Source: Phytophthora colocasiae
Lineage: Eukaryota > Oomycota > Peronosporomycetes > Peronosporales > Peronosporaceae
Direction: 5' to 3'
DNA length: 64,000 bases
Assembly (NCBI GenBank): GCA_018806915.1
Contig: JAGKQI010000090.1
Coordinates: forward strand, 2,542,001 to 2,606,000
Part shown: positions 6,128 through 56,850 of the stretch, one piece after another
Layout: every line of letters begins with the position of its first letter
How positions within the stretch are numbered: position 1 is the first letter of the stretch
Position numbers and translations under genes: made by a program
The notes under the pieces: generated by a model
What the model was told of the DNA's origin: nothing
What the model saw: only the letters and a program-made list of their open reading frames with translations
The model's database searches: none

Positions 6128-6128
6128 C
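6127..6128. other. Left inversion breakpoint
   Basis: Copia-A sequence ends with ..GCGAAAGTAAG at 6127. Minus-strand gypsy-1 protease sequence begins at 6128. The matching right breakpoint is 56850|56851. Reversing 6128-56850 rejoins Copia-A as GTAAG|CGACAGG, identical to the intact copy near 52246, and rejoins gypsy-1 as CTGGAG|GACGTG, in frame. Confidence 0.85.
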
Positions 6129-6678
6129 CTCCAGAACCGAAGAACGATAAAGTATCTGCGCACCACCCGCTACTTGAACTTTCACTGGTGGCGATAACAC
6201 ACGGACTTTAACCCGATCAGAGAGCTCGACCAGCTCATCCACAATTGCCCTCGAGACAATGTTGCTGTCCGCTCCCGTATCTGGGCAAAACGGGACGTCC
6301 AGTACCCCGTTGATACACATGCGTCGTCCGTGCTCGGACGACCCCGAGTACTTCACAGTCTGAGCAAGTCAACTCCATCCTTTCGTTTCTTGTCATCAAA
6401 GGCTTGAAGAGCAGTCTTCAGTTCCTCCGTCGCTGTGGGGCAGTCCCGCATCCAGTGACTCCCCTTGCACACCAAACAGCCCGCGGTCGGCGGTATAACT
6501 GTTTTTTTTGGCTGATCGGGTTTCTTGCGAGTTTCCGTAGGCGTAGCAGCCGCTGGTTTGCCACTCTTGTTCGCAATAGTTTTGGGCTTCTCCGGAACAG
6601 CCTTCTTCACCTTCTGTTGCATCCGGTGATAACGACGCTCTAGTCACAATCAGTTTGTAAACAGCGCCGTCGTCTTGC
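6128..6678 (-). pseudogene. Gypsy-1 gag C-terminus and protease start
   Basis: The minus strand reads the end of a Ty3/gypsy gag with a basic linker and a zinc knuckle (CLVCKGSHWMRDC). It then overlaps into the protease frame with the active site DTGA (PFCPDTGADSNIV), a spacing usual for oomycete gypsy elements. The protein stops matching at 6128, where Copia-A begins. Its continuation is at 56851 on the plus strand. Upstream, the gag frame continues across the piggyBac insertion at 6679-8808 into 8805-9407. Confidence 0.75.
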
Positions 6679-6682
6679 TTAA
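6679..6682. repeat. TTAA target site, left of piggyBac-1
   Basis: TTAA directly flanks the CCCCTCTAACCCGG terminal repeat. The second copy is at 8805-8808. Confidence 0.8.
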
Positions 6683-6956
6683 CCCCTCTAACCCGGTATT
6701 CTGTATCCTACAGAATAATATATTGTACAGGATTTAATATCCAGCAAACTCATCAGCGCTCCAAAACTCCGCATGAAGATTATTGTATGGTGTCTGGATC
6801 AGTCCACTTTCCTAACAGATCGGCGATGGGATGATAGACGGGTATTATTCAAGGAGGATAGAAAGACGCATATAAATCCCCAACAGGTTTGAAAATTCTG
6901 TCGAAAGCCCATCGGTTCACGTGTCAGAAGCTACCTCACATTGTCATTCGAAAAAA

Positions 6957-7125
6957 TGAACGGCCCAGCAGAGATGCCGTTCAAGCAACTATGGCGCGAG
7001 ATCTGCGAGGAAGGCTGGAAGGCTCGTAAGCCGACAGGGATGACCTAGAATCAACGCTACGTGAAGCCGGGGTGAAGGGCCGTCTCGACGAAGCCAGACG
7101 TGGCATAAACTTCTTTGAAGGTTAG
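6957..7125 (+). pseudogene. PiggyBac-type transposase N-terminal remnant
   Basis: From the ATG at 6957 the frame reads an FKQLW..GW..RKPTG stretch, a stop, then RYVKPGVKGRLDEARRG and NFFEG. The order GW-K-P, YVKPG, then G-FF resembles the N-terminal domain repeated in oomycete piggyBac transposases. A premature TAG after GMT and a later stop end it. No DDD catalytic core is recognisable in the element. The assignment rests on a weak pattern plus the TTAA context. Confidence 0.5.
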
Positions 7126-7646
7126 TGGCCTTATTTTTTGTGCCACCACAGTTGTCGACACAGAGGAGGTGGGCGCTACAGGTGAACTACCAGCAGCTAT
7201 ACCGGATGATACGGAGCAAGACGGCGCGACCAATGCCTTTTTCCGGATGATCCAGAATTCGATTCAAGTGAGTGCATGGCTGCTGATGAAGAAGCAAAGA
7301 GCGAGACCGATGAACCAAACGGAGCCGACGGCCTCATCGACTCGGACGTGTTTGGTAGCGACAATTTCATGGAGAGGCTCCGAAAGCGAGCGACTGTTTG
7401 GCTTCTACAGCTATCGATGACGTGAATCTCGTGGAGACCGCTGATGTCAGCGATTCCGATTCCAACGCCGACGAAGAAGACATTATGGCAGACAACGAGG
7501 TGGTCCACTTGAGGAAAGTGTAGAAGAAGATGTAGAAGACCTGGAAATAAATGACAACGTTCCGGAAACTAGTAACTTTGACTTGACAGGTGATCTCTGC
7601 GATATCCCAGAGTATGGATAGATCACATACAATGAGGAGCACAGCT

Positions 7647-8012
7647 GTAAGCCGGGATGCTACAGAATAACTCAAGTGGTGCTTACTAATTCTGGATGTT
7701 GCGTGTGCACACGGAATTTCCCATAGCCGTAAGTCAGGGATGCTGCAGAATAACTCGAGTGGTGCTTTACTAGTTCTGGATGTTGCGTGTGCACACGGAA
7801 TTTCCCGTAGCCGTAAGTCAGGATGCTACAGAATAACTCGAGTGGTGCTTTACTAATTATGGATGTTGCCCCTGAATTGTGTGCACAGGGAATTTCCCTG
7901 TAGCCGTAAGTCAGGATGCTACAGAATAACTCGAGTGGTGCTTTACTAATTCTGGATGTTGCTCCGCACAGGGAATTTCCCACAGCCGTATGTCGGGATG
8001 CTACAGAATAAT
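7647..8012. repeat. Tandem array, five units of about 83 bp
   Basis: GATGCTRCAGAATAA recurs at 7656, 7739, 7822, 7915 and 7997 (spacings 83, 83, 93, 82), each followed by a CTCRAGTGGTGC..ACTAAT block and a GGAATTTCCC block. The repeated CTACAGAATAA is the same motif found just inside both ends of the enclosing piggyBac-like element. Confidence 0.9.
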
Positions 8013-8415
8013 TCTGACACATCCAGCTACTGGCGCTGCGCAGAATCAACTTTTTAGACTCATATCAACGCCGAGGACCTGGTGTTTGTCATATCACGCT
8101 AGAAGCACACGTTAGGTGAACACATCGGATCACCAAGCAGAACAAACGCAGGCAGTACTTGTGTAAGGTGCGTTCCGCCTTTGAGCACCTTCTGTCAGCA
8201 ATGGTTTAGGCGGTCGTACCGCTCTGCCACGTTCACGCTCACGTGCTATCAGAAATGGCACGATACCTCGGGTGACGGGAAGAGCATTCCACCGAGCCTA
8301 AAAGATGATTAGATTCCGCAAACGTAAGAGAGAAAGTAAAGACGAGGAATAAGAAGGACAACTAGTTAGCACCACGTACTTTGCAGTAGGTCTTGCTGGA
8401 GCCTGCAGAGAAGTT

Positions 8416-8462
8416 ATTTGCCCAGTTCCTCCTCACTACCCGTTAGTTAGAACTGGGCAAAT
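8416..8462. repeat. 13-bp inverted repeat with T-run
   Basis: ATTTGCCCAGTTC (8416-8428) and its perfect complement (8450-8462) enclose a 21-nt loop and are followed by a T-rich run. It could form a hairpin in RNA or DNA. No linked gene is apparent. Confidence 0.7.
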
Positions 8463-8804
8463 TTTTTCCTCTTCGCGCGCTTTGCACTTCGCGCGCTTTT
8501 GGCGGATGGTTGGTTGGCGCCAAGAGTGCCGCACAGTACAGAGTCGTTTCAAATTTGACGGGGTTGCCGAGTGAGAGGTTTTGAACATGTTTTGTCCGCC
8601 AGAGCCAATAGGAGATCGCCAGTTTCGCAGATGTTGATACATTGTGCATGCTATAGCCGATGATGTACACTTTATGTACAGAATATGCCTCGCCGAGCAC
8701 GAAAGGGCTTCCAACGGCATACTTTTCGCAGGTTATCGTTCATACTTTAATCAAGATAATTGCTTATTCTGTAGAATACAGAATAACGGCTCGGGTTAGA
8801 AGGG

Positions 8805-9407
8805 TTAAGATGGCGGTGTGTCACTTCAGCGAGCCGCTGAATGTCCACACGCAGCATTGCTGGGGCGCGGTTTGCCATCATAAGTCTTCATTCGCTGCTG
8901 GCCAGCGGCATCCGTTACCTCGGCCCGACCGACCCAGGACGTCAGTCCATTGTCACCAACCAGCTTGTCGAAGCTGATGAAGTAGTTCGCAACGCGAGCG
9001 TGGACGTCCTTTTCCGACGTGTCCATTCTCAGCCGCTCATCAAACAACTTCTCCACATCTGGGACGTGATTATTGATGAGGCTGCCCACTTTCCTCTTGA
9101 CCTCCTCACGAAGACTCTCTTCGGACAGCGCGAACACTTCGATCTTGAACACATATCGCGCGAGATGCTCTAGAATTTGCGGCTTGATGGAGCTCTTGAC
9201 GCTGACCAGCACGTTTTCGGGTGCTTCGCCGGTGGCCAGGCATCGCTCCCAAATCTTGCATTCGTGCTGTCTGCGATCGCTCAGGAACACCACCAAGCTG
9301 GGCTGGCTTCACTTGGTCCATTTCGGCGCCTTAATGAACCCGAACACCGGTGGAGCTGCAGCCATATCAATGTCGCCTTCAGCATCACGTCTGTCGTCGT
9401 GCGCCAT
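8805..9407 (-). pseudogene. Gypsy-1 gag N-terminal part
   Basis: The start codon at 9407 opens MAHDDRRDAEGDID followed by a PPVFGFIKAPKW stretch. After a frameshift near 9310 the frame continues through FLSDRRQHECKIWERC, a VSVKSSIKPQILEHLARY stretch, DVEKLFDERLRMD and DNGLTSWVG. This matches the capsid-like gag of common oomycete gypsy elements. A second frame change near the end restores continuity with 6678 once piggyBac-1 is removed. No LTR is obvious upstream; a palindromic TTACCTATAGGTAA overlaps the start codon. Confidence 0.7.
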
Positions 9408-9569
9408 TACCTATAGGTAACTAAAGAATTCTTTATAGCAATTAAGCTCTGTGGAGTAAACAAACGAAATACCATGTAGCAAGTTAGACCTCGAACAGCA
9501 CTACCCTACAAGTCCTCGATCCAACGCCCTTCATCTGATCGCCGTCGTCCTCCGCCGGCGTGGCAGCGT

Positions 9570-10420
9570 GTGCCATCGTCCACTGCTGTTGTATACGCGC
9601 GTGTCATCGTTCACTGCTACCTTGCCCGCGCGTGCCGCTACGCCACTGCCGTCGAGCTGCTTGGCTTCGTGGATCGATGGCATGCGGGCTGCACAGGACT
9701 CGTCCGAGACTCACGTTCCTTCCCGCCGTGGATTCGCAACTGGGATTGTGCTCGAGAGGCGCAGCGTGGATGGATGCCGCCAACGGACGGGGTGACTGGA
9801 AAGGGCGCACCTTGCCCACGGCCGCAGTGTCGTCTGGAATCATGGTGCCCCACGCACTACATGAAAAAAAAAAACAATTTCTGTGATGGTAGCACAGTCA
9901 CAATGGGCAAGCTTCATCTCTTTTTATCGGAGCAGGTCTTTGGGAGAGAACCAAAGATATCGAAAGCCAAGATTGTTGGCAGTTCAACAGTTTGTGGATA
10001 CGTCAATGCAGTGGTAGATTTATACAATCAGCAAGTCAGCCTGCGAACTAACTCCAACGAGCATCCTCGATCAGCACAAGTCAAGCAACTCATTAAAAAC
10101 GTTCAAGCTGCAGCTACGGAAACGAGAAAAAAAAACTATCAAGACCGGGGTATCGGTTCGTCGCTAGACGGATATCATTCAGCTGGTCAATGTCGAGAAA
10201 TTTGTGATGTTTTTCTTACGTTAGATGACCTTCGAGGCCGAGCTGCCATTTTAGTGTCTCACCATGGTTTACTACGTGGTGAAAACGTGCGTGATCTATA
10301 GCTGGCAGATGTGTTTTCGCAGCTCCTTGATAAACGAGGGCTTTCAGCAGTGTACTGATCTAGTTTTGTTAATTCAACACGGCAAGACGAGCATTTAAGG
10401 CAAACTTCAGCACGTGGGAT
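9570..10420 (+). pseudogene. Crypton-like tyrosine recombinase, N-terminal half
   Basis: From about 9868 the frame carries TMGKLHLFL, a YVNAVVDLYNQQV stretch, a YQDRGIG block and a SHHGLLRGENVRDL block, ending at a TAG. Further in-frame similarity (LIQHGKTS) extends to about 10400. The HHGLLRG-N-R block and the QHGKT block are those of the oomycete Crypton recombinases, which use a tyrosine nuclease to cut and rejoin DNA. The preceding 100 codons (9570-9867) look unrelated. The catalytic C-terminal half is missing here but lies inverted next door (10429-10905). Confidence 0.6.
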
Positions 10421-18544: not shown

Positions 18545-18702
18545 TAAAACATGTTAAAGACTTGCCAGGGGATCAAAATAGAAGAAAATCCGATTAAGTC
18601 CGAATAATTTTGTGGACAGTGCTACTTTTGTAATTTCTGGAAAGAACGTTCGTGATTATCGGTATTAGCAGGGAAATACGCTCTTGGTTTTAGTAAACAG
18701 TA

Positions 18703-18717
18703 CCATTCTACAAGTTT
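18703..18717 (+). promoter_or_regulatory. Oomycete initiator of the Crinkler gene
   Basis: CCATTCTACAAGTTT fits the oomycete Inr (YCAYTYY) plus flanking region and ends 8 bp before the ATG at 18726. It makes 18726 the likely start rather than the in-frame codon at 18684, which lies upstream of the initiator. Confidence 0.6.
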
Positions 18718-18725
18718 CGAGAGAG

Positions 18726-20993
18726 ATGGAAGACGCGAAGATGGAAGAAGACGCGATGGCAGCTCAAGAGAACCGCATTGTGGTAAACTGTATCGTCGTT
18801 GGCGTACGCGGACAGCCGGTCAGCATAAGCACCAAGTTGAATGCATGGGTAAATACTTTGAACAAGCCAATAATGGCGAAGTACTCCAATCGACTGAAGG
18901 GCGTCGATGAAGGCGAGCTGCTGCTCTTCCTGGCCAAGAAGGCGGATGGCACGTGGCTGTCTGCTGATCCTGCTTTTAAAGAAACCCTGCAGGCTATGCT
19001 AAGTGGCGATGCTCCTGCCGAGATCAAGGACATCATTGGAGACGACAGGACGTCATTTACGGGACTGGAAACAATCGCAGACGCTCTCAGTACAGACATC
19101 CCATCAGGTTACTTGCACCTTCTAGTGAAGCCCCCTTTGCTAGTGCAGCAGCGTCGAGCGGCTATTACCATCGATATACCGCAAGTCAACTGGTCCGATC
19201 CTGAACCGTGCTCTCAACTCGTCGTTACAGATGACGATCAACTGATTGAATTGCCACCATCTTGCGTCAGTGGTACCGGCATTGGTCGCCCTCAGGGCGG
19301 TCCTGATCAGGCGCTGATTGGTCGCCCTCAGGGCGGTCCTGATCAGACGCTGATCCTCTATCGTCGGCCACCTCTGGTGAAGCAATGGAATGAGATCAAC
19401 AGGTGTTCAATCCAAACGTATGCGCGTCTTTGGATTGTTGGTCCACCTGGAACGGGAAAGTCGTGCGCAGCGCTCGCCTTTGCATGGTCTTTGAATCGAT
19501 CGCTCTGGGACGTGATTTGGATTCACTACTCGCGAGGTGACAAGCATTTTAATTGTATGTGGCTTCAGGGTAACGAGAAAGCGGTTTGCATTGTGAAGGA
19601 GGAAGTGATAGAGCGTGATCTGTCAGCAATCTTGAATACGACGTCGCAGACAAGGAAAACGATTGTATTTCTGGATGGGTATGTCAAGTCATCTGCAGCT
19701 GGAGAGGCAGCTCATCTCAAGTGCCTACGTTGGCATCAAGAAGACGTAAAGCGGCATCGACTAGTGTGTGTTTGCTCGATGGTTACTATCGGAAAAGAAT
19801 ATCGACCAGAACTTTACAATCAGATTCCGGCGAAAGTGGATAAGGAGCTCCTGGACTCTGAAATGGAGGATGTGGAGATGTCGGCTGGAGAATTACACAA
19901 TCTAGAAGAGGCGCAGACGAGCGAATTGCAGCATGCCATGCAGGCAGTGGATCGGCCAGTCAAGACGCAGATGCTCTTCAAACTGACATCGTGGCGCTTT
20001 GAGGATTACAAGAAGGCAATCACGAACCAAAAGTTTTTCGAGAGTGTAATGAGCAAGTTTCCAGCGTATTCAAAACAAGATGATCCAGACAAGGAAAACA
20101 AGAAGAGAACCCAGTTGCTGCGAGCAAAGTACTTTGTGGCCGGTGGAAGCGCGAGGCTCATGTTCGATGAGTCGACAGAAGGAGCGATCGATGCACTCGA
20201 CAAAGTACTTGACGAGGCACCAAACATCGAGCCGTACCTCAAAGGGTTTGTTGGCGATTCCTCTTCTAGTGCTGTCAACCGTTTACTTGCTCGGTATGAG
20301 AGCCCCAATGGTTACGAGGTTCAATTGGTGAGCGAATACGTCGTGCGTCGCTATGCAACGGTGATGGGTCCGCATCTAGTAAAGAATTTGGCGAGGGCTT
20401 GCAACGTGAATCCATCCATGGATGGTTTTATCCTCGAAGCTTGGTTTTTTGCTCAGCTCAGCCATAATGGCCTAACGTGGAGCGTGTATGTGGAATCGAA
20501 ATTACAAGGTGGCGAATGGGAGAGATCAAGCGTCGTATTTTTCGATCCAGAGAAGTATCCGATTGGTATTTCATTGGATGTTCCGAAGTGGATGGCTCCA
20601 AAGAAGTGGAACCAAGGCGGATACGATGCTGTTTTTGTCGACAAAGCAGTACAACTAGTCCGATTTGTTCAAGTGACGCGTGCTGAGCGCCATACGTTTG
20701 ATGAGACATACTTCATCGACCTCTTGAACAGACTCATCGCTGGCGATCTGAACCAAGTTGCTGTGGTTGAATTATGTTTTGTCGTCCCAATGGCTAGGCT
20801 GGAAACGTTCAGTTTACCAGTGAGCACGGAAGACTTCAAGAAGAGAGTTGTGGAAGTTGCTTCGTCGCCATCGCGAGCTACTCGGAGTCATCCCGATCAA
20901 ACATTCAAAGCTTGCAGTGCAAACGTCATTGCCATCGGAGTTGACTATGAAATTACCAACCGCAGTTCAGTCGAAGGATCCCAAGTTGGCTAG
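18726..20993 (+). CDS. Crinkler (CRN)/RHS-type effector with P-loop NTPase
   Basis: An intact 755-residue frame. The N-terminal header has the translocation motif LFLAK at residues 67-71 (LLLFLAKKADGTWL) and ends with HLLVKPP, matching the LFLAK and HVLVxxP landmarks of Crinkler proteins. A P-loop NTPase follows: Walker A GPPGTGKS at residues 239-246 and Walker B IVFLD with Asp317. The C-terminal region has a conserved Glu (ILEAWFF, about 571), Asp (GGYDAV, about 634) and VRFVQVT (Gln about 649), in the order of a PD-(D/E)XK nuclease-like fold as in CR/RHS proteins. No classical signal peptide is seen. In the family, such proteins act in host nuclei. A 36-bp tandem duplication lies at 19281-19352. 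Confidence 0.8.
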   Translation: MEDAKMEEDAMAAQENRIVVNCIVVGVRGQPVSISTKLNAWVNTLNKPIMAKYSNRLKGVDEGELLLFLAKKADGTWLSADPAFKETLQAMLSGDAPAEIKDIIGDDRTSFTGLETIADALSTDIPSGYLHLLVKPPLLVQQRRAAITIDIPQVNWSDPEPCSQLVVTDDDQLIELPPSCVSGTGIGRPQGGPDQALIGRPQGGPDQTLILYRRPPLVKQWNEINRCSIQTYARLWIVGPPGTGKSCAALAFAWSLNRSLWDVIWIHYSRGDKHFNCMWLQGNEKAVCIVKEEVIERDLSAILNTTSQTRKTIVFLDGYVKSSAAGEAAHLKCLRWHQEDVKRHRLVCVCSMVTIGKEYRPELYNQIPAKVDKELLDSEMEDVEMSAGELHNLEEAQTSELQHAMQAVDRPVKTQMLFKLTSWRFEDYKKAITNQKFFESVMSKFPAYSKQDDPDKENKKRTQLLRAKYFVAGGSARLMFDESTEGAIDALDKVLDEAPNIEPYLKGFVGDSSSSAVNRLLARYESPNGYEVQLVSEYVVRRYATVMGPHLVKNLARACNVNPSMDGFILEAWFFAQLSHNGLTWSVYVESKLQGGEWERSSVVFFDPEKYPIGISLDVPKWMAPKKWNQGGYDAVFVDKAVQLVRFVQVTRAERHTFDETYFIDLLNRLIAGDLNQVAVVELCFVVPMARLETFSLPVSTEDFKKRVVEVASSPSRATRSHPDQTFKACSANVIAIGVDYEITNRSSVEGSQVG
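19281..19352 (+). repeat. 36-bp in-frame tandem duplication in the CRN gene
   Basis: Two copies (19281-19316, 19317-19352) encode IGRPQGGPDQxL twice in the linker between header and NTPase. Two bases differ between them. Confidence 0.95.
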
Positions 20994-21162
20994 AACCGCA
21001 AGTCGACAATGCAACGTTTGTCGGCAAAATCTATTCCGAGTGCCCTGCATATTTTTAGCCAATCAGATCACACCAATGGAATTATCTTCATTTCTTTAAA
21101 TTCCTCAAGTATAAATAAAAGGTGAGTTCATCTTGAGCGATAAAAAATAAATATATAGAACA

Positions 21163-22038
21163 GTGTGCAAGTACATTTTCCCAGAGAACCACCCGAAGGC
21201 GAACCAACAGTGCGGCTCAAAAGGCGATTGGTGCCGACACCACGCGAAGTATCAGCCAGCAGTTGCTGAACCAGTGATTGCTGAACCTGTAATTGCTAAA
21301 CCTGCAGTTGATGAACCAACAACGTCTGACTGGATTGAAGAAATGTACGGAGAGCACTGCATTCAGCACGTCAAGTCTGTTGATAAATATGATCAACCCA
21401 AGTTGGTCACCAGGTGATTCGATCAAGTCGAAAATGCACGTACTTAAAGTAGTTAGTGATTCCATCGACTACAAGCATAATGATGATGTTACACCTGACT
21501 TTGGAAACGACGGATACACGTATCTGTTGCAATATCAATTCGAAGAGAGCGATCCGTTTCTTGATAACTTCTTCTTCAAGTCTAGTGAAGACCGCGAATC
21601 ATTCGAGCAAGCAAACATTGAATGCGGGATGGAATACGTCATGACAGGTTGTATCAATTATGTATGATGATTCGTGGTACCAAAACCTGTGGAATCTCGC
21701 CGGATCTCGTCAACCTCATCTGATGATGATTGATGCGCAAGACCTATCTTTGTGTGCTGAAACAAAAAGTCGAGCGTTTCAACAGGAGTTTGCTACAAAA
21801 GATTTCGATGGTTGGTCTGATTCAAAGTATAACCCATCAAGGAAAACTAAAGGGAATTACCGCTGGTTGTGATTTTGCCGCATACAAGCAATGGAAGGAT
21901 GAATATGAAGTGAAGGAGCCAAGCAAAACTCCCAGTTCAAAGTCTTTTGAGCGATCTACACTTGATCAAGACTTCGAATTGACATTCAACTCAGCGCGGA
22001 AGTTGGCAACACTAACAGATAACGGGCCGAACAATTGA
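21163..22038 (+). pseudogene. Decayed unknown genes downstream of the CRN gene
   Basis: At 21163 a frame opens with MCKYIF..KANQQCG..GDWCRHH, a compact Cys/His cluster, then a PVIAEPVIAKP repeat, and stops at 21417. A frame change leads to an acidic stretch (SDSIDYKHNDD, FGNDGYTYLLQYQF) ending at 21667. Two overlapping frames from 21660 and 21730 run to 21872 and 22038. CxYIF..G..C..YC-like clusters are common in giant DNA virus proteins, but this one is short and the match is weak. No function is assigned. Confidence 0.25.
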
Positions 22039-22183
22039 TGACTGCGTTTAGCTATATTTGATACATACATTGTAAGGTAGTGAGGAAGCGTAGCGTCACG
22101 AAGGCAAATTTGAAAGTGAATTAATGTTTAAACTTGCTCCTACAGACTAGTAAATCCTACAAGTTGAAGTAGCATAGTTTTAA

Positions 22184-22252
22184 CCAATCAAAACTCAGAA
22201 CATGACGCCTTCATCCAATCAGCATGCAGGGATCGTGGCGTTAAGCCAATCA
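22184..22252 (+). promoter_or_regulatory. Three CCAATCA boxes at 31-bp intervals
   Basis: CCAATCA at 22184-22190, 22215-22221 and 22246-22252, each exactly 31 bp apart, 208-276 bp upstream of the ATG at 22460. They are followed by an inverted repeat (CGTGCCTCC / GGAGGCACG, 22265-22298). They are probably NF-Y-type promoter boxes. Confidence 0.5.
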
Positions 22253-22447
22253 CGGCTTAGGCTGCGTGCCTCCTCGTGTGCAACACGCTGGAGGCACGAG
22301 CCTTGACGTAGAATACGTCACATACATGAGGTGCGGACGAAGGAAGGAAATTGAAGTTGATTAACTGGTTATTCCTGGTTGCTACTACTTGGCTTGGCTA
22401 TTGAATTCTGAAGGTTTGATTGTGATTGTGAATTGTTTGAATGCTAA

Positions 22448-22459
22448 TCATTTCTTATC
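22448..22459 (+). promoter_or_regulatory. Oomycete initiator-like element
   Basis: TCATTTCTTATC immediately upstream of the ATG at 22460 matches the oomycete Inr. With the CCAAT boxes it marks a plausible promoter. Confidence 0.45.
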
Positions 22460-22681
22460 ATGACGAGGAGTTCGTCCACTGGACTCCAGCGACGTAAGCG
22501 AGCCGAGTTGCAGTTTCTACGAGCTCAAGTGATTGTAGACAGCTACACCGTAAAAGCAGCTCGTTCAGACGTCTGTCTGGGCTTCATTCGTCACGCAGTA
22601 GTGGCTTGTCCTGACGAGCTTGCACCTGCACTGGATTCAGTGACGCAGGTAGTTGTAAATGTGCAAATGATCTTGTTTTAG
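22460..22681 (+). CDS. Short hypothetical gene start (73 codons)
   Basis: The frame starts MTRSSSTGLQRRKRAELQ and continues with a mixed hydrophilic/Val-rich stretch to a TAG at 22681. It has its own initiator and CCAAT boxes, so it may be the first exon of a real gene. A possible donor (CAG|GTAGTT near 22649) and acceptor (CCAG near 22694) would give a 46-nt intron, but the continuation soon stops. No family recognised. Confidence 0.35.
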   Translation: MTRSSSTGLQRRKRAELQFLRAQVIVDSYTVKAARSDVCLGFIRHAVVACPDELAPALDSVTQVVVNVQMILF

Positions 22682-22716
22682 CTGACAAATCCAGGTATTC
22701 CGGTGCTTTAATTCAT

Positions 22717-23004
22717 TTACTTTTGAGTTGAGCGAGAATTCACAACGTAAAGGATACAATTAGCTACTTTTGTTTTCAGCATGTTGCTGGCAAGTGTCAA
22801 GTTGCCCACGATATTTTTGAGGATACGATTGGCCTCTTCCGACTTCTTTCGCTCAATGAATTCGTTTAGACGTTGCCTCTCTCGTGCACTGGTCGGTTTG
22901 GAGCGTTGTCCACTGTGTTGAAGAATGCCTTCTCCGTCTTCTTCTTTTTCCATTTCGTCCACGATCCAATTCTTAACGATAACGGCGCTACTACGTAGAA
23001 GCAC
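22717..23004 (-). pseudogene. Charged helical fragment of unknown gene
   Basis: A 95-codon minus-strand frame is rich in Glu, Lys and Arg in the middle (ERQRLNEFIERKKSEEANR), suggesting a helical or coiled-coil segment. The frame upstream continues in another phase toward 23051. It lies back to back with the GAF remnant at 23050. Whether it belongs to the same broken gene is unknown. Confidence 0.3.
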
Positions 23005-23049
23005 TTGTTGGAAAAGTCCCTCGCTGGTAGGAGCTCGAAGCTTTTGGTC

Positions 23050-23854
23050 AAGTCACTACCGAGAGCTTTCGAGACTGAGTTCCTAGCGTCGGAATGAAGC
23101 TCATACTTGTCCCTCGACTGTCTGTACCTAAATGGAGATTTGTACTGGAACTGTGCGATATCGCTCGAGTTGAGAGTTCTGTGGCAGCTTGTGGGCAGAT
23201 TTTAGACGACCACAAGTGTCGTTCTCGGTCTTTACTGGCCGGCTGGGCGTTTTCTTCCCATACAAAGAGTTGAGCGATTGTATCAGCATCGAAAATGCTC
23301 ACACAGGCGTTGTAGTCGGCGTTGATGACGCTCACGACGCTCATTTCCTTAAAGAACGACATGGACGCGTACTTCAAAAACCGCCAAAATATAATTTACT
23401 CGAAGTTTCCCTGAAATTTACTCGAAGATAAGCCGCACCCCGGAATCTGCTTACGCTGGGTCGTTGATGGAGGAAGCTGTACGGTCGCAGAAGCTTACGA
23501 TCGCGAACGATATCGCCAAGGCTGGTTCGTTCAATGCTTTTGTCGACAGCCTCGGTGGGATTCCAGCGCGCAACGTGGTATTTGCTCCATTGGTGGTTGA
23601 AGACGTGGAGGGGATCATCCCGGACATGAAGAAGCTTGAGAGTGAAGGTCTCTCTGTCTTCTGACTCCGGAATGAAGCTCCTGGGTTTACTGCAACTTGT
23701 GAACATCAAAGGCCGTAAAACCCACTTTGACGAGCACGATTTGTTCCTGTCCATCGTTCAGAGTCAAAGCTGCAGTGTTTTAGCTGCAATTCTCGAGAAG
23801 CAGCGGATGATACGGCAGAAGGAGCAAATAACCTTGTTACTAAAATTTAACTGA
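23050..23854 (+). pseudogene. GAF-domain gene remnant
   Basis: Plus-strand frames contain a KWRFVLELCDIARVES segment near 23140 (a region that often precedes a GAF domain), then a RNVVFAPLVVEDVEG block and, after a frameshift near 23660, KLLGLLQLVNIKGRKTHF, which is the end of a GAF fold. Frequent stops and frame changes show decay. A better-preserved coiled-coil/GAF gene lies on the opposite strand at 32582-34194. The two could be pieces of one gene, but I cannot show a join. Confidence 0.45.
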
Positions 23855-24024
23855 AAAAGATTAATTTCGAGTAGTTGGTTGAAAGGAGACAATGGAAGTA
23901 AGTTTAAAGTGGTTGGCTGGAAGGCGTTCGTATATGCATCCATTTGCGTTTTGATGACCCAATACACCGTTGGGAGCGGAGCCAGTGACTTCGCGGCTTC
24001 TTCTGAAGAGGATGATTTCCAAGC

Positions 24025-24029
24025 GAATG
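24025..24029. repeat. Gypsy-2 target duplication, left (GAATG)
   Basis: Identical to 30900-30904, directly outside the LTRs. Confidence 0.93.
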
Positions 24030-24224
24030 TATATCTTGACAGGGAAGCTTTGGGGGAGGGCGCGCTAAAGTAGAAGTGCCGCCCCCGCAGTTCAGACGGA
24101 TGGAAGCTTCTAGAAGCTTCCACAGCCGTCCTACATCTGCTTGTATATTAATTACTATACTAATACATTCCCTAGTACTAACCGCCCATTGCAATAAAAT
24201 AGTAATATCACCCAATCAGATACA
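24030..24224 (-). repeat. Gypsy-2 3' LTR
   Basis: 195 bp; on the minus strand it starts TGTATCTGATTGG and ends CAAGATATA. Identical to 30705-30899. Confidence 0.93.
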
Positions 24225-24263
24225 CTCACCCTCCCTTTGGCAACCGCCGCCTCTTCATAGTCT

Positions 24264-24270
24264 TCATTCT
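24264..24270 (+). promoter_or_regulatory. Initiator-like TCATTCT for the antisense ORF
   Basis: TCATTCT followed by CGAAAAA lies just inside the 3' LTR, 124 bp upstream of the ATG at 24394 and in the same direction. It could start the antisense transcript. Confidence 0.3.
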
Positions 24271-24393
24271 CGAAAAAGCGCAGCAGACGGCGAAGTCGGC
24301 CGTCTCAACAGGGACTCGCTTGAACCGGTGTCATCTTCGCCTGCGGGCCTGGCTGCACTGGAATTGAGTGGGTTCCAGCCCGAGGCGGTCACC

Positions 24394-25761
24394 ATGGCTT
24401 CATTACGCTCGTCTGCTTCTTCTCGTACTCTCTTGGTCGAGCTTCAGTCTTCTGCTGGGCTTCGTGCGACTCAGTCTCGGCTGGCACGCGCCTCGTTGGC
24501 CCGGCCATCATCGGAAACGGCCGCCAACCAACCACAGGCTGCACCACAGTCCGCTTCACCATCAACACCGTCAACACCTCCATCGCCGCTGCCGCTGTCT
24601 CCTGTTGGTTCTCCTGCGGCTTCGCCTGCGCCATCATCACCCTTGGACGACGCTTCGGTGGCGTCAGATGAGTCTGGAGAATCTGTTTTGAACCGCTTGA
24701 AGGAGCTGTACTGTGGTTCGCTCTTCGGTAGCTCAAGTGAGGAATCGGAGGACGACGACTCGGAGAATCTGCAGGCGGCACGTCCAGCATCTCCTACCCC
24801 ATCAACGAGTGGTCTATTCGACGATAGCGACGAGGAAACCGAGCCTGTAGGTGGACTCAATCGCTTGAAGCGTGGGACGGACTCTGGTGACTGGCATCCG
24901 TACGCGTTGCCTTCTGCTCCGGCAAAACATCCTGCGAACGGCCGAGTAAACCACTACGACCCTTCTGCTCCGTGGGATTACTCCGTTCCCGTCAACATTG
25001 AGCAGCTACACGACGTCCGCGGCGAATATCCGCATCGGTGTTTTCTCGTGGAATGGCAAGTTTCGCCGCTTCAGCTGAGCTGGGTTTGGGAGGAGCAACT
25101 TGTCCAACGATTCGCTCGCCGAATGGATCAGGTGATGCAGTGGTGTGACGATCTGCGCCCTGATACGTTTGCCAGTTATTACAAGAAGAATTTCGCGCGT
25201 CGTGACCAGGCTTCTCCTGCCGGTGGCTGCTTCATGGACGCTTTTCGCGCAGCGCTTTTCCACCTTGGTGACCCTGGGCTCGCCTCTACGGCTACTGAAC
25301 TTTGGGTGGGCTTCGAGCGTGAACATCCGGGTACTGTCGATGGAGTTTCTCGTGCGGAAGCTACGGAGTTCTTTCGCGTACTTCAACGCAGCCATTTTCC
25401 GTTGGATTACGATCTTCTCTTCCACAGTCCACTTGACGCTTCATACACGAATGTGGAACTGTTCCAGACGTTTGTCCAAACACTGCGTGAGAGAGTGTAT
25501 CTCACGAGTATTGGTGATGGCCTCGTCGGACACTGCATTGATGTTCTCGCGAAGGGTTCAGACACTGCTGTCTCTGTACTGGATGGAGTCGAACCGCCTG
25601 TGACCCCGGAACCATTGACCAACTTGGAGTATCTCGACAAGGTCAAATGGATGGGATTGATGAAGCTGAATCCAGGTTACCGTTGCCGCCGCGGTAAACG
25701 CAAGGCCAGGCCGAATCGAAAGAAAGCTCGCCGCGAGAAGAAGAAGCAGCAGAAGTTGTAG
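24394..25761 (+). CDS. Antisense ORF of gypsy-2, cysteine-protease-like
   Basis: An intact 455-residue frame opposite to gag-pol, starting at an ATG in a strong context (GTCACCATGG) just inside the 3' LTR. Residues 1-170 are low-complexity Ser/Pro/Ala and acidic, with an SSSEESEDDD run. A middle block has FLVEWQ and WVWEEQL, reminiscent of a chromodomain strand and helix. Then GGCFMDAFRAALFHLG (Cys279), GLVGHCIDVL (His380) and LDG (Asp397) are spaced like a papain/OTU-type catalytic triad. The tail is strongly basic (RRGKRKARPNRKK). This fold resembles an ORF linked to oomycete gypsy elements. Any protease activity is inferred. Confidence 0.6.
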   Translation: MASLRSSASSRTLLVELQSSAGLRATQSRLARASLARPSSETAANQPQAAPQSASPSTPSTPPSPLPLSPVGSPAASPAPSSPLDDASVASDESGESVLNRLKELYCGSLFGSSSEESEDDDSENLQAARPASPTPSTSGLFDDSDEETEPVGGLNRLKRGTDSGDWHPYALPSAPAKHPANGRVNHYDPSAPWDYSVPVNIEQLHDVRGEYPHRCFLVEWQVSPLQLSWVWEEQLVQRFARRMDQVMQWCDDLRPDTFASYYKKNFARRDQASPAGGCFMDAFRAALFHLGDPGLASTATELWVGFEREHPGTVDGVSRAEATEFFRVLQRSHFPLDYDLLFHSPLDASYTNVELFQTFVQTLRERVYLTSIGDGLVGHCIDVLAKGSDTAVSVLDGVEPPVTPEPLTNLEYLDKVKWMGLMKLNPGYRCRRGKRKARPNRKKARREKKKQQKL

Positions 25762-25820
25762 GGGATGTAATCGGGAATACATGTAGGCTCTCGGGCCCCC
25801 TTTACTCTTGACTTTGCCGT

Positions 25821-38381: not shown

Positions 38382-39080
38382 CACACGAATCGACGCATAC
38401 TGAAATCAAGATACAAAAATGATGGGCAAATATCTTGCACCGAAAAAGCTTCACGATTTGCCAGACATAAACGCTGTCTTTCATTTTTCAAAATATGCTA
38501 TTCAACAGGATAGATATGCTCATGAACAGGTAAATGTTGCAACGGTGGCGCCCGCCAACCATCCGTTTCATTTGAGAACTGAGAAAACGCCTACACCAAG
38601 AAAAAACGGAGGACACATACAGCTTCGGAAAATAATGAGTAGTCTACCTTGCTAGTCACTTTATGTCGTATTATGCAGCGAACTTATGTGTGGACAACAG
38701 CGGAACCGACTCCTTGATCAGCTGTTTCTCGACGTAACGCTGTAAAATAGTATATAGGACTTTGTATGAACAGATTTTCATCTGTTTGCGGTAATCATCT
38801 GATTGCGGTACCGGTTTCTTTTCGTATGCCTTCTCATTTTCTAAAAATTCGAGTTTGGTTTCTCGATATTTGACTGGTCTCTGGCCAATTGCACATGGTC
38901 TTTGTGCAACACTGTACGGTCCTTCTGCAGCATTATGCAGCTTTGCATGGGGCACCTGGATACAATTTGTTCTGCAACATGCAGCTTTAGCGGGAAGTGT
39001 CCTGTCCATCGCCGAGCGTGTGCACACTTCCCAAATCCTTTAAGCGACGTTCTATACAAATTCCTAGTATAACTGTGCTG
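38382..39080. repeat. 699-bp tandem unit 1 in piggyBac-2
   Basis: Identical by eye to 39081-39779. Each unit encodes one 78-codon (+) and one 118-codon (-) frame of unknown meaning. Confidence 0.93.
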
Positions 39081-39779
39081 CACACGAATCGACGCATACT
39101 GAAATCAAGATACAAAAATGATGGGCAAATATCTTGCACCGAAAAAGCTTCACGATTTGCCAGACATAAACGCTGTCTTTCATTTTTCAAAATATGCTAT
39201 TCAACAGGATAGATATGCTCATGAACAGGTAAATGTTGCAACGGTGGCGCCCGCCAACCATCCGTTTCATTTGAGAACTGAGAAAACGCCTACACCAAGA
39301 AAAAACGGAGGACACATACAGCTTCGGAAAATAATGAGTAGTCTACCTTGCTAGTCACTTTATGTCGTATTATGCAGCGAACTTATGTGTGGACAACAGC
39401 GGAACCGACTCCTTGATCAGCTGTTTCTCGACGTAACGCTGTAAAATAGTATATAGGACTTTGTATGAACAGATTTTCATCTGTTTGCGGTAATCATCTG
39501 ATTGCGGTACCGGTTTCTTTTCGTATGCCTTCTCATTTTCTAAAAATTCGAGTTTGGTTTCTCGATATTTGACTGGTCTCTGGCCAATTGCACATGGTCT
39601 TTGTGCAACACTGTACGGTCCTTCTGCAGCATTATGCAGCTTTGCATGGGGCACCTGGATACAATTTGTTCTGCAACATGCAGCTTTAGCGGGAAGTGTC
39701 CTGTCCATCGCCGAGCGTGTGCACACTTCCCAAATCCTTTAAGCGACGTTCTATACAAATTCCTAGTATAACTGTGCTG
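39081..39779. repeat. 699-bp tandem unit 2 in piggyBac-2
   Basis: Second unit, directly adjacent to unit 1. Confidence 0.93.
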
Positions 39780-39827
39780 CATAATTCAGCGTAAGAAGGT
39801 CAAAATCAGCCGGGCTGGAGGGGTTAA

Positions 39828-50243: not shown

Positions 50244-50371
50244 ATCCTGCGCCGCATCGTAAGAAGGTGGAGACTCCAGTCGGTGGTAATTTCTTGGGAG
50301 ATTTCAACCGGAACGCTATTACCATCCGTGTCTAATGCTCATACGTGAACTGCTGTGCACCAAACTGTCCA

Positions 50372-50820
50372 CCAATTTCCGTGAGGCCACGGAAAGCTGA
50401 ATACCTCAAGAAAATCGGCTGTGATCGGGTGATCAACTACAACAAGGAGAGTTTCGATGAAGTCCTAAAGCATGAGTACCCGAAGGGCATCGACATCGCT
50501 TTTGAGACCATCGGTGATCAGATGTTCAAGACAGTGTTCGACAACATGGCCATTCGAATCATTGTCGTCGGACACATCTCAGAGTACAGAGGAGATACCC
50601 CACGCTCACCTTTCACTGTTAGCGCGATGAATGGGGTTCTGCTCATGAAAGCCATTACAGTGCGTGGGTTCTTGTTTGCGGACGTACAGCGACATCATCC
50701 CGACGCACATGGAAAACCTCTTCAAGCTCATCAAGGAGGGGAAACTGGTCGCTGGCGGCGTTCCACGGACTGGAACAGGTCCCGGACGCCATCGATCACA
50801 TGTACGCGCACAAGAACAGT
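50372..50820 (+). pseudogene. Zinc-binding NADP oxidoreductase (ZADH2/PTGR3-like) fragment
   Basis: Encodes KAEYLKKIGCDRVINYNKES, IDIAFETIGDQMF, IIVVGHISEYRG and NGVLLMKAI, the nucleotide-binding half of a medium-chain dehydrogenase, then the C-terminal region with the same two single-base insertions as the copy at 2271-2509. It ends at HMYAHKN, where the Copia-A LTR begins at 50821. The N-terminal half is absent. Confidence 0.75.
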
Positions 50821-51064
50821 TGAGAGTGGGGAAGTAGTAGTAGTGTTTTGGATGCAAATTGCAAAGTGAGGTTCATTAGAACGTTAAAAGACAAACCCAC
50901 TGGGTCAGCCTCCCAGGGCTGCCCACCACTAGAAAACTAGCGCCATCAGAGATATCAGATGCTCTCAGGGATGCTCACCGCTAGAAGTCTAGTGCCATCA
51001 GATGTCTGATGCTCCACTAAGGTCACGGTGGCTTGTGCCACTTGTACCTACATCGTGAAATGCA
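50821..51064 (-). repeat. Copia-A 3' LTR
   Basis: 244 bp, TGAGAG..TGCA on the plus strand. A G-rich purine tract (minus-strand TGTGGGGGGCGAG) abuts its inner edge. Near-identical to 55425-55668. Confidence 0.9.
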
Positions 51065-51102
51065 ACTCGCCCCCCACAAGTGGTGCAAGGGTAACTACGG
51101 AG

Positions 51103-54100
51103 TCATCCCGTCGTATCAACCAAGCAGCACATTGCTCGCTTGCGACGGAACTCCGTTCTTACCAGGGCCTTAGTGAGTAGATCCGCTGACATTTCGCCAG
51201 TCGGAGTATAGTCCGCTGTCAATTCACCTTTGTGAATCAGGTCCTTAACCGCGTGATACTTCACGTCCACAGTCTATTGAGTCTCGCTGTGCCCACTGCG
51301 TTGGAGGCGCTTGATTGCTGGCTGGCTATCCATTATCAGTCTTAGAGGAAGCTCCTTTTGCAGTACTTCATTCGCAATGGCTTGTATCATCAGCGCGTCT
51401 TCAATGCCAATGTCCGCCGCAATATACTCAGCGGCCGTGCTTGATTTTGCTACGATAGTTTGTTTCTTGCTCGCCCATGCGACCGGGCATCCGAACAAAT
51501 ACACCACTGATCCTGATACGCTTTTTCGGTCTGCTCGATCGTTAGCCCAGTCAGCGTCCGTGGCCACCACGATATCGTCACTAGTTGGCTGGAACTTCAT
51601 TTTCAAACCCGTTGTTGCACGAAGGTGCCGGAGTAGATACTTGACAGCATCCCATGCCATCTTCCGTGGCGCGGCCGCGTGTCTTGCGAGTTGGCCTACC
51701 GTGAATAGGATATCGGGTCTGGTTACTCTTGCCAAGTATAGTAATGCGCCAACTGCCTGTCGATAAGGCATCCTTCCCATGTACTTTTGTTCCTCATCGG
51801 TCGGGCCGTCGTCCGTGAAGTCCAAGCGAGTGTTCGCCACCATTGGCAATTGTGTGGGCCGTGTTGCATCCATCGCAAAGCGGTGCAGGACCTCCTCAAT
51901 ATAACTCCCCTGGCTGAGTAGTACCGTGTCGTCAGCCACGCGGTCAACCTTCATTCCCAGAAACTGGTGTGGCTTACCCAAGTCCTTCACTTGGTAGCGG
52001 CCGGGGAGAGTAGTCAGTAGGCGCAGGCATTGGTCCTCATTCTTGTGAGCAACAAGAATGTCGTCGACATACACGCATACTAATAGCAGTGAGCCATCCG
52101 TGTACGCGAAATAGAGACACTGGTCGCCACGCGTTGGAGTAAGCCCATAGTCAACTAGGAAGTTGTTGATCTCGCGATTCCATTGTCGCCCCGCTTGGCG
52201 CAAACCGTTTAGTGCCTTACGTAGACGCCACACCTTCCCCCTGTCGCTTACTTTCGCATATCCCGGCACTGGCTTCATGTATATTTCTTCGAGAAGGTCC
52301 GCTTTAACGTACGCGGCCGGAACGTCACCTTGGCGCACACACAGTTGGAAATACACCACTAGCACGAAGAAAATTCGGACCGTCACTAGTCCAGCTACGG
52401 GTACGTAAGTTTCGACGAAATGCACGATCCATTGCTGTTTGTCTCCACGCGCGCAAAGCCTCGCCTTAAAACGCACCACACTTCCGTCTGTTCCTGTCTT
52501 GAGTCGAAATTGAAGAGTGTGATCCAGCACGCGCACACCATCTGGGGCATCCACCCATTCAAACGTCCCATTCTCGAAAAGTGACTTCACCTCATCATCG
52601 ATTGCCTGCTTCCATTGTGCCCATTCAGGCGAGCGCTTGGCTTCGGCAAGATTTAGTGGCTCCTTAATAATTTCGCCCAGCACGACAAAAGCTTGAGCCT
52701 CTGCAATAGTTCGACGTGCAATCCGTTGTGAGCGTCGAACAGCCGCAAGTTCTGAAGGGAAAGCTCCTTCACGATCATCTTGAGATTGTGCGGTCTCCTC
52801 ACTTTCATCGTCCGAGCTATTTATCATGGGTTCCTCGCTGTTAACGTCGTCATCTTCGACATCTGGGTCGACCTCAAACAGCATTCTGTCCACTACAGTG
52901 ACATCGCGGGAAGCAAATATCGAGCGTTGTGACCCCTTCGCATAGACATAGAATCCCTTGATATCCTCAGCACATCCGATAAACGCACCGAGCCGTCCTC
53001 GAGTGTTGAGAAAACGCTTTAGCTTGCGGCGTAGCTGATCAGGTACTCGCGCAACGACAGCTTGGCCGAATATGGGCAGTGTGCTCACGTCTGGACGCCT
53101 CCCGAAGATGCGCTCATGTGGGGTAATCGTTGCATCTTGCCGAGGGATTCTGTTGCGTACGTACGTGGCGTGCTGCAAGGCATATTCCCAGAGTCGATGT
53201 GGCAAACCTGAGGCGACGAGCATGGCCGCCGCCGTTTCTATCACCGTCCGGATGCTGCGCTCAGCCACGCCATTTTGAAACGAGGTGTAAGGTGTCGTGT
53301 GTTGCAGTAGTATTCCTTGGTCATGCGCCAGCTTCCTGAAGTCCTTATTTAGAAACTCTGTACCCCCATCCGTCCGAAGCACCTTGATAGCCGTTGCGGG
53401 TACCTCTGCTTGTCTCTCTATCATGGTGAGGAAACGCTTGGTCATGTTGGTGGCATCATTCTTGTGCTTAAGGGCGTAAGTTTGTACGTAATCTCGCCAA
53501 ACCGCCACCATGAAGTACCTGTTTCCATTGATCGATGCTGCCATCGGGCCTGCAAGGTCAACGTGACATATACCGTCCGCAAACTTGTCTGGGCTTGATC
53601 TCCCTTTCGGCACTGGTTGGCGTGTGGCCTTTGTTAGTGTGCACACGGTACACATCTTGGGCTTCGCTCCTGCAGCAATACGAATGCCGTTTACGGTGCC
53701 GCTTTTCGCCATCCTCTGCAAGGTTTCATAATTGACATGGCCGAGTCGTCTGTGCCACATCTCCAAGGACCGTCCGAGTGCTGCTGCCGTAAACCCGCAT
53801 GCCTTATGAGCCCCTCTACAACGAGAACCTGTCACCACAGAGTAGACACCTCCTTCTAATCGAGCGATGCACTTGGTACTGGATCCTTTCGCAATCGTGC
53901 AACTCCGAGGACCAAAACTTACTGTATATCCAGCGTGCCACAATGCTGATACGGGCAATAATGTGTGCGGCAGCTCAGGAACATAATACACATTCTCCAC
54001 CACGAAATCCTGTTCTTCTTCGTAACTTCTGCTGTTCTGGACCAGAACTTTCACGTGTAGCCGTCCTTTTGCCCTGGCAACCACCGTCCGTCCGTCTGCT

Positions 54101-54216
54101 ATCTTAATAGCAAGTGCCACGTTGTCGTCTGTAGCCTCAAAGCCTGTATACTGACTGGTCAGGTGGTGCGACGCGCCCAAATCCACTAGGATCGGGCTCC
54201 ACCTGACGTCTGACCT
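51103..54216 (-). pseudogene. Copia-A pol, full length with lesions
   Basis: The frame continues from gag after a TGA. Protease site VDLGASHH has Leu in place of Ser/Thr. Integrase: [54 protein letters not shown], catalytic YVDDILVA near 52060. RNase [30 protein letters not shown] stop at 51274-51276 (AAG to TAG, compared with 55878 in the partial copy) removes the last ~57 codons. The remainder to 51103 keeps the frame. Confidence 0.92.
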
Positions 54217-55398
54217 TCACGCTGAGTCCTCTTCCGAGTTCGCAACTGAGCTTCCCGCAGGTTCATCCACACCATCTTCAGTTGTGGTCATATTTCCACG
54301 CGCATTAGTCTCGTTGTCGTCGCTGGAGGCCTTGGAAAGGTGTTGACGGTGGTATTTAGCGGTGTGACCTTCCTCGTTGCATATATAGCAGACAATACCT
54401 CCGCGGCGAGGCATTTTCGTCGGTTTTCTTTTGCGCTCAACGACGGCGGAATGAGCCTTCCCACTGGCGCCATTAGTCTTTGCAACATGCCTCGTGCCAT
54501 CTGCCTTGAGTTTAGCATCAATGCGCTGTCCCCGCGACCCATCCGCCAACTTACGTCTCTTATAGTCCTCCAGGCGGCCATCCGATTGAGCCAGCTCGCT
54601 CAGGAACTCCACGGCAGCGTGTATTAGAGTGGTAGGCGAGCCTTGTTGTCCATGAATATGGGAATGAACAACGTCCTTTCGTTGAGGCCACGCCAATCGC
54701 AGAAACGTACCCAGCGCGTGTTGAGCATTCGCCACGTTGGCAATTCCTCCGGAGAACCCGTCCGCCATTCGGAGCAGTCGGTCTGCATATTCCTGGTACG
54801 TCTCCGACGCTCGTTTGCCTTCCGAGTAGATTCGGGCAGTAATTTCTTGGTCAGTTAAATTGGGGCGGAACTTCTTCACAAGGGCGTTTCCCGTCTCCTC
54901 AAACGTTGCTGTTGGGTGGCCTGTTCGGAATATCTTGAGCCAACGGCGCGCGGTGTCGGATAGGAAAATGGATAGCACAGACTTCTTGGCTGCTTCGGAC
55001 CATTCTTGCCCCGCCAAAATTTGGGCATCACCCACCTGGTCTGCAAACTGATCCCACCAATCGCGAACTCCCGAATCATAAGCTCCATGCGGAACAGCGC
55101 CAGAAAACTTTTCCATCCTCACGTTTCGAATGTCAATCTTCTCACCTCTCTTCTCAACACCGTCACCAACGGTGTTCCTTTCACCGACCCGTGCGTGCCC
55201 GGGATTCGGCTCATCGTCCGGCTCGGTCGCACCTTCAACAGCTTGGGGACCGGCGGTCCCTGGTGTCGGTGGGTTCACGAGTGCATCAGCAGCGTCATTT
55301 TCCACACCGGGAACTGGCCGTGGTCCATCTTGTGCGCCGGTGCCATCTGGTGCACCTACGGGAGCGCCTTGGTTGCGGTTGGTGCGACGAGTCGACAT
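54217..55398 (-). CDS. Copia-A gag
   Basis: 393 residues from the ATG at 55398 (MSTRRTNRNQG), the first start after the LTR. An acidic/Pro-rich leader, then the capsid-like region (FSGAVPHGAYDSGVRDWWDQ, ETYQEYADRLLRMADG), a basic segment and one zinc knuckle with a final His (CYICNEEGHTAKYH). It ends at TGA 54217-54219. The protease follows in the same frame, so readthrough would give gag-pol. Confidence 0.9.
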   Translation of the reverse strand: MSTRRTNRNQGAPVGAPDGTGAQDGPRPVPGVENDAADALVNPPTPGTAGPQAVEGATEPDDEPNPGHARVGERNTVGDGVEKRGEKIDIRNVRMEKFSGAVPHGAYDSGVRDWWDQFADQVGDAQILAGQEWSEAAKKSVLSIFLSDTARRWLKIFRTGHPTATFEETGNALVKKFRPNLTDQEITARIYSEGKRASETYQEYADRLLRMADGFSGGIANVANAQHALGTFLRLAWPQRKDVVHSHIHGQQGSPTTLIHAAVEFLSELAQSDGRLEDYKRRKLADGSRGQRIDAKLKADGTRHVAKTNGASGKAHSAVVERKRKPTKMPRRGGIVCYICNEEGHTAKYHRQHLSKASSDDNETNARGNMTTTEDGVDEPAGSSVANSEEDSA

Positions 55399-55424
55399 CG
55401 ACCGAATAGCGGCTGTTAACCAGT

Positions 55425-55668
55425 TGAGAGTGGGGAAGTAGTAGTAGTGTTTTGGATGCAAATTGCAAAGTGAGGTTCATTAGAACGTTAAAAGACAAAC
55501 CCACTGGGTCAGCCTCCCAGGGCTGCCCACCACTAGAAAACTAGCGCCATCAGAGATATCAGATGCTCTCAGGGATGCTCACCGCTAGAAGTCTAGTGCC
55601 ATCAGATGTCTGATGCTCCACTAAGGTCACGGTGGCTTGTGCCACTTGTACCTACATCGTGAAATGCA
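55425..55668 (-). repeat. Copia-A LTR shared between two copies
   Basis: 244 bp. It serves as 5' LTR of the complete copy to the left and 3' LTR of the partial copy to the right. Confidence 0.9.
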
Positions 55669-56850
55669 ACTCGCCCCCCACAAGTGGTGCAAGGGTAACT
55701 ACGGAGTCATCCCGTCGTATCAACCAAGCAGCACATTGCTCGCTTGCGACGGAACTCCGTTCTTACCAGGGCCTTAGTGAGTAGATCCGCTGACATTTCG
55801 CCAGTCGGAGTATAGTCCGCTGTCAATTCACCTTTGTGAATCAGGTCCTTAACCGCGTGATACTTCACGTCCACAGTCTTTTGAGTCTCGCTGTGCCCAC
55901 TGCGTTGGAGGCGCTTGATTGCTGGCTGGCTATCCATTATCAGTCTTAGAGGAAGCTCCTTTTGCAGTACTTCATTCGCAATGGCTTGTATCATCAGCGC
56001 GTCTTCAATGCCAATGTCCGCCGCAATATACTCAGCGGCCGTGCTTGATTTTGCTACGATAGTTTGTTTCTTGCTCGCCCATGCGACCGGGCATCCGAAC
56101 AAATACACCACTGATCCTGATACGCTTTTTCGGTCTGCTCGATCGTTAGCCCAGTCAGCGTCCGTGGCCACCACGATATCGTCACTAGTTGGCTGGAACT
56201 TCATTTTCAAACCCGTTGTTGCACGAAGGTGCCGGAGTAGATACTTGACAGCATCCCATGCCATCTTCCGTGGCGCGGCCGCGTGTCTTGCGAGTTGGCC
56301 TACCGTGAATAGGATATCGGGTCTGGTTACTCTTGCCAAGTATAGTAATGCGCCAACTGCCTGTCGATAAGGCATCCTTCCCATGTACTTTTGTTCCTCA
56401 TCGGTCGGGCCGTCGTCCGTGAAGTCCAAGCGAGTGTTCGCCACCATTGGCAATTGTGTGGGCCGTGTTGCATCCATCGCAAAGCGGTGCAGGACCTCCT
56501 CAATATAACTCCCCTGGCTGAGTAGTACCGTGTCGTCAGCCACGCGGTCAACCTTCATTCCCAGAAACTGGTGTGGCTTACCCAAGTCCTTCACTTGGTA
56601 GCGGCCGGGGAGAGTAGTCAGTAGGCGCAGGCATTGGTCCTCATTCTTGTGAGCAACAAGAATGTCGTCGACATACACGCATACTAATAGCAGTGAGCCA
56701 TCCGTGTACGCGAAATAGAGACACTGGTCGCCACGCGTTGGAGTAAGCCCATAGTCAACTAGGAAGTTGTTGATCTCGCGATTCCATTGTCGTCCCGCTT
56801 GGCGCAAACCGTATAGTGCCTTACGTAGACGCCACACCTTCCCCCTGTCG
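55669..56850 (-). pseudogene. Copia-A pol C-terminus (3' part of the broken copy)
   Basis: Encodes RT from [12 protein letters not shown] through YVDDILVA and the whole RNase H to a stop at 55707 (ending CCLVDTTG). It has neither the K-to-stop nor the Tyr-to-Asn change of the full copy. It is cut at 56850|56851. With the block 6128-56850 reversed it continues the plus-strand copy 3381-6127 without a gap, so the two are halves of one element. Confidence 0.92.

Follow-up and report, generated by a model that had tools for sequence, protein, structure and literature searches.

A probable 50.7-kb inversion in Phytophthora colocasiae with base-level reciprocal joints between Copia and gypsy retroelements

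The locus

The stretch of DNA considered here, hereafter the window, comprises 64,000 nucleotides of the oomycete Phytophthora colocasiae (assembly GCA_018806915.1, contig JAGKQI010000090.1, positions 2,542,001 to 2,606,000; G000:C57:2542001-2606000 in the searched genome of 92.5 Mb and 105 contigs). Within it, positions 6128-56850 stand inverted relative to their flanks, a statement that holds to the base. Two long terminal repeat (LTR) retrotransposons are involved, a Ty1/copia element named Copia-A and a gypsy element named gypsy-1, each of which is cut into halves that lie at opposite ends of the block. The block, its two junctions and the parts of both elements are as follows:

6128..56850, strand not applicable: inverted block, 50,723 bp
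6127..6128, strand not applicable: junction A, where Copia-A (+, 5′ side) abuts gypsy-1 (-)
56850..56851, strand not applicable: junction B, where Copia-A (-, 3′ side) abuts gypsy-1 (+)
3377..6127, + strand: 5′ piece of Copia-A unit 1, with the first 662 bp, including the LTR, missing
55422..56850, - strand: 3′ piece of Copia-A unit 1, ending in the LTR that is common to unit 2
50818..55671, - strand: Copia-A unit 2, complete, 4854 bp
6128..9861, - strand: 5′ part of gypsy-1 with its 5′ LTR, carrying a multicopy element inserted at about 6683-8805
56851..58121, + strand: continuation of gypsy-1, from protease to reverse transcriptase

Reciprocity of the two junctions

Probes of 600 bp spanning junctions A and B were run against the genome, and every first-look candidate was scored. 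The probes gave 18 and 19 matches, respectively, the window itself being counted once in each. Apart from the window, none of the 17 matches for junction A and none of the 18 for junction B extends more than 4 bases past the joint. The initial annotation of this DNA had Copia-A joined to gypsy-1 at 6127|6128 and 56850|56851 in the orientations given above, as was confirmed, and it counted other genomic copies of the chimeric junctions among the findings that would overturn the inversion; neither probe search found one.

In uncut relatives the halves of each probe adjoin. This is the case in all six close Copia-A copies (95-99% identity; C4, C5, C11, C14, C58 and the complete copy of the window) and in all three close gypsy relatives (91-94%; two on C75 and one on C97), while one-sided distant relatives of 69-81% identity, eight for junction A and nine for junction B, were left out of the base-level work. 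Both Copia halves, 3377-6127 (+) and 55422-56850 (-), align with the uninterrupted copy at 50818-55671 (-) and join on it at 52246/52247. Reversal of the block restores the predicted Copia site, GTAAGCGACAGG, which is identical at the base level in 6/6 copies. At the restored gypsy site, 3/3 relatives match in length across the joint, with 3 substitutions in 8 bases. Since the breaks lie in multicopy elements that have uncut relatives, a single assembly reveals both the ancestral and the derived arrangement at base resolution.

The breaks were described as lossless, and indeed nothing is gained or lost at either joint. Both breaks can slide jointly by 1 bp; as a slide of at least 1 bp occurs in 44% of 200,000 random position pairs, this carries no signal of microhomology. 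No homologous repeat exists at the two breaks beyond this 1-bp slide, and the junctions are reciprocal and restore both ancestral sites, as expected of a two-break inversion sealed by end joining. The signature of staggered breaks, an inverted duplication of breakpoint sequence, was not seen, with no duplicated base at either joint. As for ectopic recombination, no homologous inverted repeats occur at the breaks of the 50.7-kb block, and an inverted repeat pair does exist for a 46-kb variant of the event, which is weighed below.

The halves of gypsy-1

The continuity of gypsy-1 across the joint can also be followed in its protein. A gypsy protein of P. megakarya (P0024) spans the joint, residues 99-175 corresponding to 6365-6135 (-) and residues 195-399 to 56900-57514 (+), and the residues between 175 and 195 fit both half-ends in a single frame. 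The protease frame is therefore kept when the block is reversed, as had been proposed, with the halves in one frame up to the joint; a frame shift deeper in the right half is a decay event separate from it. All five protein homologues of gypsy-1 come from Phytophthora (63-82% identity). Its protease and reverse transcriptase parts were matched through homologues and an integrase part was not seen; the 235-residue open reading frame of gypsy-1 in the window had no Pfam match.

The surroundings of gypsy-1 are rich in repeats, and the genome matches of 6400-10400, 57500-60600 and 60400-63900 are mostly multicopy elements. The element lying within the 5′ part, at 6683-8805, is 2.1 kb long and contains internal tandem repeats. 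On the other side, multicopy DNA (58119-64000) starts where gypsy-1 ends. Here 58119-58401 and 60199-60481 are inverted repeats, and nearly all of 58119-60600 is matched at 22 other places; C52:1362652-1372346 holds such a piece between two inverted arms, of which the window retains only 283 bp of the left one.

A tandem pair of Copia-A

The complete unit of Copia-A has 250-bp LTRs (50818-51067 and 55422-55671) with zero differences over 251 compared positions, one of these being flank. Its LTR at 55422-55671 doubles as the 3′ LTR of the cut unit, so that units 1 and 2 form a tandem pair with a shared LTR. The pair thus has the two internal regions and one common LTR by which tandem LTR retrotransposons are recognized, its outer 5′ LTR having been lost. 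Assignment to Ty1/copia follows from an integrase region that precedes RVT_2 (158.7 bits), from the 250-bp LTRs and from a 5-bp target duplication; the integrase match itself (rve, 27.5 bits, E 4e-6) lies under its curated cut-off of 32.6, and those of gag_pre-integrs and SH3_retrovirus lie above theirs. The 5-bp duplication is present in 4/4 other Copia-A copies that are complete at both ends (C4, C5, C14 and C58), and the copy on C11 contains an insertion. The LTRs of Copia-A start with AGTTG and finish with CAACT instead of TG...CA, with the same boundaries in these four copies.

Between the two units there are 11 substitutions over 2751 aligned positions, together with two deletions, and 3 substitutions over 1430 positions in the other stretch. 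Five of the 11 substitutions and both deletions are private to the cut unit, and the remaining six substitutions are private to the complete one. The four other copies that span both stretches show 20-32 and 12-26 differences from the units, and the partial C11 copy shows 22-23 of about 1490 and 8-10 of 619. Since each unit has the other as its nearest relative among the copies, the pair is most likely the product of a duplication of a single element, which the inversion would postdate.

An interrupted oxidoreductase gene

A line of evidence that does not depend on the element halves comes from a zinc-binding oxidoreductase gene, the pieces of which lie on opposite strands and 48 kb apart in the window:

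2271..2509, - strand: 3′ end of the oxidoreductase gene, left-flank copy
50336..50817, + strand: body of an oxidoreductase gene of the same kind (ADH_zinc_N), cut by the Copia insertion
2301..2305, + strand: putative unoccupied target site, identical to the 5 bp found 3′ of the Copia array (50813-50817, -)
1326..3376, + strand: local tandem duplication, 1326-2194 being repeated at 2509-3376 with 98.5% identity

The gene was assigned by PF00107 (44.6 bits), and its best matches among solved structures are zinc-binding alcohol dehydrogenase domain-containing protein 2 / prostaglandin reductase 3. Positions 50609-50817 are an inverse repeat of 2301-2509 (210 bp, 99.5%, one chance base included), which places a putative empty target of the Copia array in the left flank, on the opposite strand and at a distance of 48 kb. 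The motif GTTCT opens the 3′ flank of the array, and the bases that follow it resemble those of the unoccupied site at 2301. Copia position 663 directly adjoins the duplicated stretch 2509-3376.

Paralogues of the gene on the same contig indicate how its parts belong together. In two of them (L062 and L063) the sequence runs continuously from window positions 1431-2509 or 1415-2509 into 50454-50608 or 50393-50608, which in the window lie on the opposite strand, and a third (C57:2.401 Mb) has search coordinates consistent with such continuity. A fourth, more distant one (C57:2.644 Mb, 77-85%) shows continuity within the gene part but not upstream of it, where the orientation is reversed. Reversal of the block brings the oxidoreductase parts onto one strand and into the order of the paralogues. 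The continuity of the gene and of the putative target site supports the inversion independently of the element halves.

Contents of the block

Two genic features lie inside the inverted block:

18684..20993, + strand: gene with a Crinkler N-terminal domain, a candidate effector
32582-33220, - strand: frame with a GAF domain

The former bears out the earlier remark that the block carries a Crinkler. A further gypsy element occupies 24029-30899 (-), has identical 196-bp LTRs (24029-24224 and 30704-30899) and seems to carry an extra open frame of 561 residues on the opposite strand (24076-25761), for which all 22 homologues are from Phytophthora (29-87% identity) and which has no Pfam match. At 38382-39781, a stretch of 701 bp is repeated head to tail with 100% identity and adjoins a Copia-type frame.

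Proposed history and rival explanations

A history that would lead to the present arrangement may have begun with a partial tandem duplication of the oxidoreductase gene, followed by insertion of Copia-A into the second copy. The element would then have become a tandem pair with one common LTR, and its outer 5′ end (662 bp) would have been lost along with about 110 bp of flank. Double-strand breaks, one in the upstream Copia unit and one in gypsy-1 some 51 kb away, would have released the intervening block, and end joining would have put it back the other way round with neither gain nor loss of a base. We infer that the steps followed this order, that end joining sealed the breaks and that the event took place in a cell and not in the assembly. 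The best and simplest account of the sequence appears to be a two-break inversion, blunt and reciprocal, with a probability of about 70%. It had been put forward in the initial annotation and is retained here, with the amendment that the tandem Copia with its shared LTR opens a second route to the same joints.

Several points weigh against this account. Its basis is one assembly of one isolate. The target duplication of gypsy-1 provided no second test because no 3′ remainder of the element was found on the contig of the window, among the 40 of 319 candidates that were scored, and that of the Copia array had to be deduced from the empty site because its 5′ side is lost. Moreover, identical joints may be reached in other ways. 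Since 52247-56850 corresponds to exactly one permuted one-LTR unit of Copia-A (4604 bp, the element length minus one LTR), a one-LTR circle might have been opened at the cut site and bluntly captured in gypsy-1, after which recombination with the inverted Copia of the left flank would have flipped 46 kb. The inverted repeats required are present (3377-6128 and 52246-55009, 2.76 kb, 99.2% identity, longest exact match 515 bp), and a study of tandem elements names one-LTR circles among the products of retrotransposons (PMC11899658). The differences between the units, all private to one or the other, reveal no crossover tract and do not separate this route from a two-break inversion. Nevertheless, capture would demand a blunt integration without target duplication plus a second event, as opposed to LTR-LTR recombination and a single inversion for the tandem pair, and the extra event is judged the rarer; a literature search on the integration of permuted circles returned no match. 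Such a capture is consequently considered unlikely. Both routes leave the inner DNA (6128-50817) in reverse orientation to the left flank.

Slightly less probable still is that scaffold or contig editing flipped the block in silico, the alternative that the initial annotation itself had raised. Lossless reciprocal joints are just what a software flip would yield, and the inverted order is the only one seen in the assembly. No second haplotype was seen there: among the 39 of 311 candidates scored, 21000-24600 was matched only partially besides itself, and the closest relatives of gypsy-1 are at most 94% alike. However, the window has zero N, the breaks (contig positions 2,548,127 and 2,598,850) and the length between them (50,723) do not correspond to round bin sizes, and the joints share at most 1 bp, leaving nothing to mislead an assembler, all of which makes such a flip less likely. 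Finally, in a region this dense in nested elements the two chimeric junctions might have arisen separately, by nested insertion or unrelated truncations. This can be given hardly any weight, as four truncation points pair to the base in two unrelated elements with matching orientations, and what the flanking gene and target site show is consistent with an inversion. Separate origin was rejected after the junction probes found no other copy of either chimera.

Consequences and comparison with known systems

As one LTR served both the cut Copia and its tandem neighbour, the event turned direct Copia repeats into the inverted pair at 3377-6128 and 52246-55009, which now brackets 46 kb with the Crinkler gene. 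From the repeat layout, renewed flipping appears possible. That the block flips repeatedly by homologous recombination, such that the orientation of the effector segment would vary between nuclei or isolates and the present order would be one state of a switch, is a speculative and rather improbable extension. Small inversions in repeat-rich, effector-bearing regions of Phytophthora are hard to resolve. The present case points to inversion through the joining of unrelated sequences, not through recombination between repeats, and an event of this type generates new inverted repeats with the potential to drive further flips.

Simple two-break inversions, of the cut-and-paste type with end joining, have been described for Drosophila. 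The present inversion resembles them in its reciprocal pair of breaks at sites that lack homology to each other, and differs in that both breaks lie in multicopy retroelements, so that one genome suffices to check the two ancestral joints base by base. Also in Drosophila, the Galileo transposon reportedly generates inversions via ectopic recombination between its copies. In cod, ectopic recombination between tandem hAT miniature inverted-repeat transposable elements is given as the source of inversions in the accessible part of the report (PMC12368964). Breakpoints within transposable elements are common to these cases and to ours, but here the elements at the breaks are unrelated and the junctions share at most 1 bp. 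Likewise, Verticillium rearrangements are attributed to stretches of sequence similarity, as far as the consulted portion of that work goes (PMC4971763), whereas no such stretch is shared by the joints described here.

Among titles and opening lines of abstracts in the open-access literature, for the 15 of 106 and 15 of 39 matches listed, no report of this inversion was found. Within the genus, a 4.3-kb inverted block upstream of gene 07733 is recorded for P. infestans strain 1306 in the available excerpt (PMC9584435). Both are small inversions in a Phytophthora genome; that block came from a comparison of strains and is described in the excerpt without its joint sequence, while the present one measures 50.7 kb and is resolved to the base at its joints within one strain. 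Tandem LTR retrotransposons are widespread in plant genomes, according to the section available of the study cited above (PMC11899658), and the pair of Copia-A units, separated by a single LTR, is of the same form, with the difference that one unit was here later cut by an inversion. The kind of rearrangement is therefore ordinary and known, and this case is a well-resolved addition to it.

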